38,838 bases of DNA, from positions 128,850 through 167,687 of IMG/VR virus record IMGVR_UViG_3300035670_000017; one strand, given 5' to 3'. The stretch comes from a virus. The translations under genes and the position numbers were made by a program. Under the pieces are notes generated by a model. It had not been told where the DNA came from and made no database searches. It was given only the letters and a program-made list of their open reading frames with translations. This document shows, piece by piece, positions 2,476 to 34,985 of the stretch (the stretch's first letter is position 1; every line of letters begins with the position of its first letter).

Positions 2476-2500
2476 GAGAGCCTTGTGATTTGATCCTACT

Positions 2501-2533
2501 ACACTCTGTTGTCCTTCATGGGCAACAGAGTGT
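2501..2533 (+). terminator. Hairpin terminator, 11-bp stem
   Basis: Arms 2501-2511 and 2523-2533 form a perfect 11-bp stem, extended inward by a CC/GG pair. It closes the tail-fibre-like unit and separates it from the accessory cassette beginning at 2693. It has no strong T-run downstream. Confidence 0.75.
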
Positions 2534-2540
2534 ATGTATG

Positions 2541-2692: not shown

Positions 2693-3154
2693 ATGAAAAC
2701 ACATCGAACACTAGGCAGTCTACTAGCGAGCCGGGTCATCAATGAGCCTTGGGAGAAGCCTACCAAAGAAGCACTTCTTACCATGAGAGCTATAGGTTTC
2801 TCAGATGACTATGTACCGAGTTATAATGTACTGGCCTTTGGATGGAGGATCAGTCATATATTCCAACACATCCCCGATCTGAGTTCTGATATGTTTGCTG
2901 AAGAGCACAAACAGATGATGTGTAAGGATTTTCTGTGGTTATGTAATCAGATCTCTGGGCTCAAGGTTTTGAGAAAGAAATACTCCGATGGATGCGTGGT
3001 TGAACGCTATAATCAATGCTTGGATGATTTCAATATGAAGCTTTCATGGATCATGCCAGGATGCTACGAATATATTTCTAAGAAAAGAATTCTAGTGAAT
3101 CCAATTACTAAGTCGACGTTCATCGTCGGATGGAAAGAATATAAGGAGGACTGA
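2693..3154 (+). CDS. Hypothetical protein, first gene of NADAR/SLOG cassette, 153 aa
   Basis: The start has a strong GGAGAGGTGA ribosome binding site at 2679-2688. The 153-residue protein is soluble, mixed helix/strand, with several Cys and Trp residues but no recognisable motif. Its TGA overlaps the ATG of the next gene by one base, and a near-perfect AAGGAGGA site sits inside its 3' end, so both proteins should be made together. This pairing suggests a functional partnership with the DUF4326-NADAR-SLOG protein, possibly as substrate, inhibitor or accessory factor. The family is unknown to me. Confidence 0.7.
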   Translation: MKTHRTLGSLLASRVINEPWEKPTKEALLTMRAIGFSDDYVPSYNVLAFGWRISHIFQHIPDLSSDMFAEEHKQMMCKDFLWLCNQISGLKVLRKKYSDGCVVERYNQCLDDFNMKLSWIMPGCYEYISKKRILVNPITKSTFIVGWKEYKED

Positions 3155-4281
3155 TGCAGTTACACAATAGGCACACGATGCCTAAGGACATCCAAGCTAC
3201 ATATATAGGCAGAGGGACTATCTGGGGAAATCCTTATGTGGTCAGCGAAAATGGCTTAGATCAAGCTTCAGCGGCTTTGTTGTATCGTAAATCCTTGGCC
3301 AGGCGCTTGGCAGGTAGAGACCCTGTTTCGGTTGACAAAGTTCTGAAGCTCGCTGGTGTCGAACACATTTGCTGCTCGTGCGCCCCTAGACCTTGTCACG
3401 GTGATTGCTTCGTTGAAATCTGGAACATCATCCGGGACAAGAAGATAAAACCCCTAGAAGGTATCCGGGAGTGGGTCAAGCTCAATGGGTATAGCTATGG
3501 TCCTTTGACAGATGGCAAAGACCACATCAATATCTATAGCAAAGCCAAGACTCGGTTAGGGAAGTTCCTGACCAACATGTCGGATGTTCCTGTAAAGACC
3601 AAGCACGGAGTCTTTCAGAGCATGGAGGGCTACTGGTATTGGTTAAGTACTGGTGAGCAGCATGACTTCTTTCGAGACGCTCAGTGTTTTGAGGCTAAGA
3701 AACGCGGCAAGGGGTTGGAACGAATTGGTAATTCTACGATGCAACAAGACATCAAAGATGCCATGTACGAGAAACTCGTACAGTATCCAGCGATGTTGGA
3801 GTTATTTAAGAAGTCTGAGCTTCCATTCACTCATTACTACTTCTTTGGTCAAGACGACGACAGAACTGTAGTCTATCCGGCTTATGATTGGATCACTGCG
3901 GAATGGGAGAGACTCAGAAAGCTTTTCCGTGGTGAGTTAAAGAGATGTATCATTGCTGGTAGTCGAACCATCACTGATTATGAGATCGTTGAGAAGGCTG
4001 TTAAGGACAGCGGCTTTGAGTTTGATGAGGTAGTATGTGGTGAGGCTATGGGAGTTGATACACTAGGACGCTACCACGCCATGCGCAATAAACTCTACAT
4101 CAAGAGCTTCATTCCTGACTGGACCAATCTAGGCAAGAAGGCCGGAATGTTGAGAAACATCGACATGGGTAACTATGCGGATATGGCTATTGTCATCATC
4201 AAAGACCATAGCAAAGGCAGCACTCAGATGAAAGAGTACATGGAGAGTTTGAAAAAGCCTGTATACTCCGTGCATCTGTGA
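3154..4281 (+). CDS. DUF4326-NADAR-SLOG (DUF2493-like) triple-domain fusion, 375 aa
   Basis: Three modules are visible. Residues 15-95 are DUF4326-like: GRGTIWGNPY at 19-28 and the Cys/His signature CCSCAPRPCHGD at 73-84. Residues 125-232 are NADAR/YbiA-like: FQSMEGYWYW at 154-163, with E158 at the position of the conserved SxEHYY glutamate, then an AKKRGKG element and a terminal THYYFFG. Residues 263-375 are a Rossmann-like SLOG domain of DUF2493/YspA type: CIIAGSRTITDY at 265-276, GEAMGVDTLGRYHA at 296-309, and PDW followed by KKAGMLRN. NADAR enzymes remove ADP-ribose from modified guanine or process riboflavin intermediates; SLOG domains bind nucleotide ligands. A role in ADP-ribose/NAD-linked conflict or repair is inferred. 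The cassette interrupts tail genes. Confidence 0.8.
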   Translation: MQLHNRHTMPKDIQATYIGRGTIWGNPYVVSENGLDQASAALLYRKSLARRLAGRDPVSVDKVLKLAGVEHICCSCAPRPCHGDCFVEIWNIIRDKKIKPLEGIREWVKLNGYSYGPLTDGKDHINIYSKAKTRLGKFLTNMSDVPVKTKHGVFQSMEGYWYWLSTGEQHDFFRDAQCFEAKKRGKGLERIGNSTMQQDIKDAMYEKLVQYPAMLELFKKSELPFTHYYFFGQDDDRTVVYPAYDWITAEWERLRKLFRGELKRCIIAGSRTITDYEIVEKAVKDSGFEFDEVVCGEAMGVDTLGRYHAMRNKLYIKSFIPDWTNLGKKAGMLRNIDMGNYADMAIVIIKDHSKGSTQMKEYMESLKKPVYSVHL

Positions 4282-4337: not shown

Positions 4338-4934
4338 GTGCCGCCTCAACCTTTATTTATTAAAAAGCTAAGTGAGCTGCCGTCTCAATTGGAGCCCAGC
4401 ACACTTTACATCACTCCAGATACGGGAGATCCTACTAATTTGATATTCACCGCCACTAACCAAGATGGCACTGTTTCTAAAGGTACCTATACCTGGCAAG
4501 ACATCGTGGATATTGTCAAAGCGGAAGTATCTCCTATCAGAACTAGAGTCAGGACGTTTGATCTTCCAAACGTCGGAGATAGCTGTGATGTTGATCTGGA
4601 TGGAATCATTCGAATCAACTACGTCAAAACAACTAACTCCGGATACGAGGGATATCAAGTCCACCTGTACGCCATAGGTCCTGATCGGACTGTTGGATTC
4701 AGGCGAGACACTATCTATGACAACACAGCCTTAGAAGGCTACAATAACAATAACCTGGTCTTGTCCGAGACTACTGGGTTTTTATCAGACTCTCTGGCTT
4801 ATGGAAGCATGCGTGAGTTTACTCGAAAAGTCATCATCGATTACTCCACCATGGTCTCATGGCAGATTGACATCTATGGCTTCGGTAATGGTAAACTTAG
4901 GTTTATTGTTGCTCGTTACCAGGAGAGTGATTGA
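4338..4934 (+). CDS. Probable tail-fibre/virion protein with GTG start, 198 aa
   Basis: The reading frame begins at a GTG (4338) preceded by AAGGAGAT at 4321-4328; no in-frame ATG is as well placed. The N-terminus (KKLSELPSQLEPSTLYITPD) has the L-P-x-x-L-x-P-x-T-L-Y-x-x pattern found at the start of many phage fibre or appendage proteins. The rest is rich in Asn, Tyr, Thr and Gly and probably all-beta, as in fibre shafts or tips. The following gene starts only 1 base after its stop. A structural role is inferred from composition and neighbours. Confidence 0.55.
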   Translation: MPPQPLFIKKLSELPSQLEPSTLYITPDTGDPTNLIFTATNQDGTVSKGTYTWQDIVDIVKAEVSPIRTRVRTFDLPNVGDSCDVDLDGIIRINYVKTTNSGYEGYQVHLYAIGPDRTVGFRRDTIYDNTALEGYNNNNLVLSETTGFLSDSLAYGSMREFTRKVIIDYSTMVSWQIDIYGFGNGKLRFIVARYQESD

Positions 4935-5232: not shown

Positions 5233-5237
5233 ATAAG

Positions 5238-5272
5238 GATACTATCCAGGCTAAAAAAGCCTGGATAGTATC
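5238..5272 (+). terminator. Hairpin terminator, 15-bp perfect stem
   Basis: Arms 5238-5252 and 5258-5272 pair perfectly around an AAAAA loop, starting 6 bases after the stop at 5232. It is immediately followed by the promoter-like motif at 5277, giving a compact unit boundary. A T-run is not evident. Confidence 0.85.
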
Positions 5273-5276
5273 TACT

Positions 5277-34091: not shown

Positions 34092-34985
34092 TTAGGACTC
34101 CAAGAATTGACGCAAACGAGGGATTGCGTTGGGGTTAGAGAGATTGATGACGGGGATGTTCATCGCCTTAGCAATCGCTGCGACGTGACCGGCTTGACCG
34201 GACTGCATCGTGCGGGTAGCTGGACCTTCACATCCATCTTCAGACCAAATGATGACAATCTGGCATGGTTGCTTCAGGTACTTGCCCAGGATCAGACGCA
34301 CGTTCTTGGCATAGAACGATTGTTGTACTTCCTTGATGTTACTCCATTCAGGCAAATAGCGCTTGGCAAATTCCTTGCACTCGTCGTTGCTGAAATAAGA
34401 AGCTTCGCCCTGGACTTGGTTGAAGTTCTTCCACGGAATGTGAAGCTCGACACCTGGAATGGTTTCCATCACCATTTTGTCAAAACCGTCCATACAGGAT
34501 GCACGGATGGTATATCCATGGTGAGCCAGGATGTTGCCAGCTTCTGCAATCAAAGGCTTCAGTTGATCAGGCGCGCGGCCGTTACCGGTAATGACAGCAG
34601 TCTTGGGGAGCTTAAGCTTTTCCAGTTCCTCAGGGGTCAGAGGCTTCGGTTGTTGACGATTCTTCCAGTTACCGCCACCGCCACCTCCGCCACCATTGCG
34701 ATTCCAATTACCACCACCTCCTTGGCGATTCTGCCAGTTACCGCCGTTGTTTCCACCTTGACGGTTTTGCCAATTACCACCATTGTTGCCTCCGCCGCCA
34801 GTCGAGGTGTACTGAGGCTGCTGCTGTTGTGGAGCTTGGTTCTGATAGCTGCCACCGGAGTAGCTGTTTTGAGAAGGCGCAGGTGCTTGGTTGCTGCTTT
34901 GACCGAAGTTCATCGGTTGTTCAGTGAATCCAGGGCGAGATTCAGGCTGGCCGCCTTGACCCTGGTTATTTTGATAGAAATCCAT
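34092..34985 (-). CDS. SLOG-domain protein with Gly-Asn-Trp-Arg repeat tail, 297 aa
   Basis: Residues 1-110 are disordered: a Gln/Ser/Pro region, then four GGNW(Q/K)NRQ-like repeats with poly-Gly (about 68-110), like RGG-type RNA-binding and phase-separating segments. Residues 125-297 are a Rossmann-like SLOG/LOG domain. TAVITGNGRAPDQLKPLI matches a GGN-type nucleotide loop, GYTIRASCMDGFDKMVME the second loop, and GQAGHVAAIAKAMNIPVINL the terminal strand-helix-strand. SLOG domains bind nucleotides such as NAD or ADP-ribose derivatives, or DNA (DprA). A nucleotide- or nucleic-acid-sensing role is inferred. A good AAGGAG site precedes the start. Confidence 0.75.
   Translation of the reverse strand: MDFYQNNQGQGGQPESRPGFTEQPMNFGQSSNQAPAPSQNSYSGGSYQNQAPQQQQPQYTSTGGGGNNGGNWQNRQGGNNGGNWQNRQGGGGNWNRNGGGGGGGGNWKNRQQPKPLTPEELEKLKLPKTAVITGNGRAPDQLKPLIAEAGNILAHHGYTIRASCMDGFDKMVMETIPGVELHIPWKNFNQVQGEASYFSNDECKEFAKRYLPEWSNIKEVQQSFYAKNVRLILGKYLKQPCQIVIIWSEDGCEGPATRTMQSGQAGHVAAIAKAMNIPVINLSNPNAIPRLRQFLES

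Follow-up and report, generated by a model that had tools for sequence, protein, structure and literature searches.

A predicted DUF4326-NADAR-SLOG fusion protein in a probable giant phage genome fragment and its possible relation to NAD-derived ADP-ribose compounds

The window analysed here, 38,838 nucleotides in total, forms the final 38.8 kb of a virus record of 167,687 bases (IMG/VR IMGVR_UViG_3300035670_000017, G000). At 3154..4281 (+) it carried a gene for a 375-aa protein, with homologues colinear over their whole length in two other viral genomes. This open reading frame was present exactly as an earlier note, made from the sequence alone, had claimed, and the gene was well formed: a ribosome site (AAGGAGG, 3143-3149) lay 4 bases before its start, and its ATG shared bases with the TGA of a preceding 153-aa ORF (TGATG). 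The latter (2693..3154, +) displayed no match in phages or in PHROGs, and the 198-aa ORF downstream (4338..4934, +) displayed no family match. Together, the three ORFs formed a unit delimited by two terminator-like stem-loops, one ahead of it (2500..2534, +) and one past it (5237..5273, +), both recognised by consensus match only. An Rfam scan of the window gave no match.

A promoter-like motif, TATATACTTHACTTGAGGA, was encountered in about 24 copies in the record, each of them on the + strand and most of them lying 38-93 bases ahead of an ORF. Four of them were located in the window (5294, 10132, 19694 and 24805, +), and the RNA polymerase beta gene was among the ORFs preceded by the motif, which is probably a phage-specific promoter class. 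None of the copies preceded the fusion-gene unit. Since this unit displayed neither the motif nor a recognised early gene, early expression was not indicated. A phiKZ early-promoter motif, TATATTAC, was also considered and rejected: its one near-match in the record, AATATTAC at 2550, was not above chance.

The N-terminal domain (residues 12-87; 3187..3414, +) belonged to DUF4326, as indicated by Pfam PF14216 (E=2e-13; 51.2 bits for a cut-off of 25 in a search of the 375-aa protein), by phrog_464 and by family conservation. All residues of its Cys-Cys-Cys-His-Gly-Asp motif were kept (C74, C76, C81, H82, G83 and D84). More generally, the residues of the YIGRG..GNP and CxCxPxxCHGD stretches were all present and were invariant or nearly so among relatives, a comparison which bore out the earlier view that the DUF4326 cysteines are intact. 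To our knowledge, no activity or ligand has been demonstrated for this domain. A rhodanese-phosphatase-like fold and phosphatase activity were proposed for it (PMC9503650). The full-length AlphaFold model was confident over DUF4326; rhodanese and phosphatase structures were absent among the PDB matches listed, and no structural relative could be named for the DUF4326 fold.

The middle region (about residues 117-260; 3502..3933, +) was divergent. The Pfam NADAR model (PF08719) left the protein unmatched at E<=1 and recognised only three of its 52 relatives, at best with 0.022; Phage_30_3 and NADAR, both models of the NADAR superfamily, were nevertheless the only Pfam families matching more than one of these 52. 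Single-sequence searches with NCBIfam and with phmmer against the PDB did not recover NADAR either. Such single-sequence searches, being negative, were discarded as the sole test for NADAR and replaced by profile and fold tests. The region matched phrog_652 and phrog_11222, and hhalign aligned the profile of the 52 relatives with the YbiA family at a probability of 96.6% (E=5.5e-10), whereas the DUF4326 and SLOG profiles, used as controls against the same target, reached 0.2%. When the domain was modelled with AlphaFold (pLDDT 93.9, pTM 0.87), the top PDB matches of the model in Foldseek were YbiA (2b3w; probability 1.00, TM 0.64) and the NADAR protein of P. nicotianae (8bau; probability 0.99), all other matches having a probability of at most 0.05. 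From profile-profile comparison and predicted fold, the middle region is thus a NADAR domain, and its being missed by Pfam reflects the sensitivity of that search, not a trait of the protein. The earlier note would have abandoned its claim on a profile search failing to recover NADAR or on a model with an unrelated fold. The Pfam miss taken alone is such a failure, the more sensitive tests do recover the domain, and the modelled fold is that of NADAR.

Three positions of the predicted NADAR pocket deserve attention. E158 (codon 3625..3627, +) aligned in hhalign with the conserved glutamate of other NADARs (YbiA E48, P. nicotianae E43) and was kept in 51 of 52 relatives, so that the earlier statement on this residue stands. 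Seven residues further, S165 (3646..3648, +) aligned with a lysine that binds phosphate (YbiA K55, P. nicotianae K50, E. coli C7 K95). The ADP-ribose phosphates are coordinated by this lysine, which the DarT1-linked NADAR of E. coli C7 requires for its function (PMC11543638). At this position, 15 of the 52 relatives displayed K and seven displayed R, making 22 together, while S, A and L occurred in eight each. Judged from sequence, S165 would lower the claim of activity on ADP-ribose-guanine, not that of membership in the NADAR superfamily. H227 (3832..3834, +; 49 of 52 relatives) is the likely counterpart of the Glu/Asp that other NADARs carry in their last strand, an equivalence placed by hand as the hhalign alignment ends just ahead of it; phage NADARs typically have a histidine there (PMC11125620). 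A link between lysine loss and SLOG fusion was tried (0/11 versus 32/83, Fisher p=0.014) and rejected, the tree offering only two to four independent comparisons and no significance.

T4 gp30.3 is likewise a phage member of the NADAR superfamily with the conserved glutamate and the last-strand histidine. It differs from the fusion by its single domain and its preserved phosphate lysine, and pairwise similarity between the two is not meaningful. The DarT1-linked DarG1 and the P. nicotianae NADAR (8bau) share with the fusion the NADAR fold and the pocket glutamate; unlike them, the fusion has no DarT partner, has its phosphate lysine replaced and displays a histidine for Asp/Glu. A degenerate NADAR was also encountered in the same record, in a 442-aa ORF (L012:10670-11998, same G000 coordinates; phrog_652, 2.6e-6) with the glutamate changed to Tyr and the histidine to Asp. 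Similar NADARs lacking the glutamate were found next to intact ones or in their vicinity in L224/L225, in L043 and in Pseudanabaena phage Pam2.

The C-terminal part (about residues 263-375; 3940..4278, +) was a SLOG domain of the YAcAr/DUF2493-like type. Pfam YAcAr matched residues 264-324 (E=2.3e-5, 24.6 bits) under the curated cut-off of 28.2, phrog_289 matched with 2.4e-19, and in Foldseek this part of the model resembled DprA and the SLOG domain of ThsA in its 3'cADPR-bound structure (7uxs). G269, R271, G296, G300, D302, W323, R334, N335, S353 and G355, invariant in 23 relatives, were all present. The full-length model (pLDDT 92.6, pTM 0.68) gave confident predictions of the domain folds and a less confident one of their arrangement. 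Profile and fold evidence thus agreed with the earlier proposal of DUF4326, NADAR and SLOG in a single chain. Of the profile searches it had called for, Pfam alone sufficed for DUF4326, hhalign and not Pfam was needed for NADAR, and SLOG was found below the Pfam cut-off. The window contained a second SLOG gene (34092-34985, -), whose product is DprA-like and rich in Gly and Gln in its N-terminal half (phrog_768, 1.2e-21).

Relatives with the three domains in the same order were encoded by two uncultured viral genomes, L108 (375 aa, 49% identical over its full length) and L112 (389 aa, 35% identity). This identical, colinear full-length architecture indicates that the fusion is not due to chance. 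None of 50,697 phage records matched at least 80% of the protein, no full-length homologue was found at 80% coverage among 72,556 plasmids, and the best matches in BFVD spanned at most two domains. Bacterial and archaeal genomes yielded four partial NADAR matches only; in that collection and at that sensitivity, the fusion is therefore not a host gene.

Partial and alternative combinations were also encountered. L110 and L209 displayed DUF4326-NADAR without SLOG, while Macro-NADAR-SLOG proteins were encountered in L052 and L059 (Macro confirmed by Pfam) and in L061 and Salmonella phage SA002 (Macro recognised by sequence); in Erwinia phage AH06, Macro occupied its own gene ahead of NADAR-SLOG. 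As in the fusion, a SLOG of the same type follows NADAR in these systems (SA002, Erwinia AH06/RAY; phrog_11222), and the carriers are PhuZ-bearing phiKZ-like phages. They differ in having Macro in place of DUF4326, either within the chain or encoded separately, and their NADAR sits on another branch of the tree. DUF4326-SLOG systems share the same DUF4326 and the YAcAr/DUF2493-type SLOG but have no NADAR in the chain, the order being reversed (SLOG-DUF4326) in Vibrio phage Vp_R1 and the domains being encoded by separate genes in Schitoviridae. On the NADAR tree, the SLOG-fused state required four changes, at least two of them forced by well-supported branches, so that either fusion of the parts took place at least twice or fused chains were repeatedly split. 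Frequent and independent fusions of DUF4326 to SLOG, Macro and NADAR have been published (PMC7824862, PMC9503650). They involve the same domain families; the triple chain is not spelled out in the texts, and Figure 5h may already draw one. Fusions among these domains have thus been known since 2021-2022, and the triple is a rare variant of a published viral class.

A common class of ligands best accounts for the repeated union of the DUF4326, NADAR, SLOG and Macro families. Phage members of these four families were predicted to act on soluble ADP-ribose derivatives serving as immune signals or toxins (PMC9503650, PMC7824862). We consider it about an even chance that this phage protein, with three modules in one chain, acts on soluble NAD-derived ADP-ribose compounds as an enzyme, a binder or both. 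SLOG would bind or cleave an ADP-ribose derivative such as cyclic ADPR, NADAR would cut the ribose N-glycosidic bond via E158 and H227, and DUF4326 would remove a ribose-linked phosphate, as might be expected of the proposed rhodanese-phosphatase-like domain. During infection, the three domains could jointly bring down the level of an NAD-based host immune signal or of a toxic ADP-ribose phosphate.

The nature of the carrier bears on this proposal. The RNA polymerase beta subunit of the record had its closest counterparts in phiKZ-like phages of Pseudomonas and Burkholderia, and the record encoded a PhuZ tubulin (phrog_4733, 1.4e-55), both of which suggest that it is probably a fragment of the genome of a nucleus-forming giant phage. 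PhuZ was present in all seven records larger than 100 kb with a SLOG-fused NADAR; among 35 large records whose NADAR was unfused, 15 encoded it, a descriptive comparison since the records are not independent. Its presence in all large records of the first kind identifies the carriers as phiKZ-like giant phages. In the phiKZ-like record of L110 (G003:53443-56111, -), PhuZ was encountered as two ORFs of 229 and 116 aa, that is as a split or interrupted gene.

Such a carrier weighs against a DNA-repair counter-defence in which NADAR would strip ADP-ribose from guanine in phage DNA, undoing a DarT1-type attack, while the other domains would bind or process the released ADP-ribose. PhuZ points to a phage nucleus, which shields the DNA (PMC11797060), and DarT (PF14487) was absent from the record. 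The NADAR fold and the preserved E158 are what this explanation predicts, and NADARs of every subfamily tested, among them T4 gp30.3, can hydrolyse guanosine-ADP-ribose in vitro (PMC11125620); however, T4 gp30.3 did not rescue DarT1 toxicity (PMC11125620), and S165 sits where the E. coli C7 NADAR needs its lysine (PMC11543638). DarT1 reversal is consequently quite unlikely and is weaker than a role on soluble NAD or ADP-ribose derivatives. Of the function suggested in the earlier note, the link to conflict networks is retained, being the published view of the families (PMC9503650, PMC7824862), and the disarming of DarT1 is weakened by these four points.

NAD chemistry is prominent in the record. 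It encoded a KptA/Tpt1 RNA 2'-phosphotransferase (G000:116403-116987; L018:2403-2984; E=1.6e-50; PF01885, 2.1e-49), an NAD-dependent DNA ligase and a 547-aa fusion of a DHH-DHHA1 phosphoesterase to a C-terminal NUDIX-like part (G000:69365-71008; L015:12365-14005; Pfam 1.2e-6, 1.2e-5 and 0.0016). The presence of KptA about 15 kb from the fusion gene raises the possibility of RNA-repair housekeeping, the protein dismantling the ADPR 1'',2''-cyclic phosphate produced by the phage KptA during tRNA-end mending. KptA occurred in three of seven large records with SLOG-fused NADAR versus one of 35 large records with unfused NADAR, and the relative from phage Hena1 adjoins RNA ligase, kinase and Sir2. 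Yet two of these three carriers of KptA belong to the Erwinia-type NADAR-SLOG phages and are thus non-independent, KptA and the fusion gene belong to different operons, and tRNA scans revealed no tRNA gene in the record. KptA was moreover absent from the records of L108 and L112, which argues against a fixed role in RNA repair, and this explanation is unlikely. KptA coupling as a general rule was rejected, with only four of 50 records. The 257-aa ORF directly before KptA resembled an HD hydrolase by eye and had no Pfam match. Elsewhere in the record, a QueC-like protein (G000:103521-104273; L017:8521-9270; 1.8e-11) hints at 7-deazaguanine chemistry, possibly guanine modification of the phage DNA.

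The soluble ADP-ribose derivatives proposed above as ligands could also be bound rather than processed, SLOG sequestering a signalling nucleotide and NADAR and DUF4326 serving as binding modules in a protein that would not mainly be an enzyme. ThsA SLOG domains are ligand sensors, 7uxs being a SLOG-3'cADPR complex, and both the lost NADAR phosphate lysine and the glutamate-less NADAR paralogues of the same and related phages are consistent with such a sponge or sensor. Preservation of E158, H227 and all DUF4326 motif residues suggests, on the contrary, retained catalysis, and a pure sponge or sensor appears very improbable.

Action on soluble NAD-derived compounds, by catalysis or binding, is favoured by the three folds, by motifs intact except for the phosphate lysine and by a domain order recurring in three viral genomes. 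The occurrence of Macro in the place of DUF4326, the likeness of SLOG to the ThsA-3'cADPR structure and the KptA, ligase and DHH-NUDIX genes of the record speak for it as well. On the other side, ADP-ribose may not be the NADAR ligand given the absent phosphate lysine, KptA was not found in the L108 and L112 records, early expression was not indicated and PADLOC gave no match.

A more elaborate reading joins these elements and is, as a whole, very unlikely to be correct in full. It supposes a multi-step enzyme that would dismantle a host NAD-derived immune signal instead of soaking it up, SLOG capturing the signal and the loss of the lysine having re-shaped the NADAR site. Assembly of such an enzyme would have taken place on more than one occasion in phages that form a nucleus; with their DNA shielded, these phages would face cytosolic signalling defences as the main threat.

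The fusion offers a compact single-chain object for testing the prediction that DUF4326, NADAR and SLOG share ADP-ribose-derivative ligands. The replacement of DUF4326 by Macro and the missing lysine point to a substrate unlike that tested for NADARs so far. If NAD-derived immune messengers are degraded by this protein, it would represent an enzymatic counter-defence alongside the known sponges.
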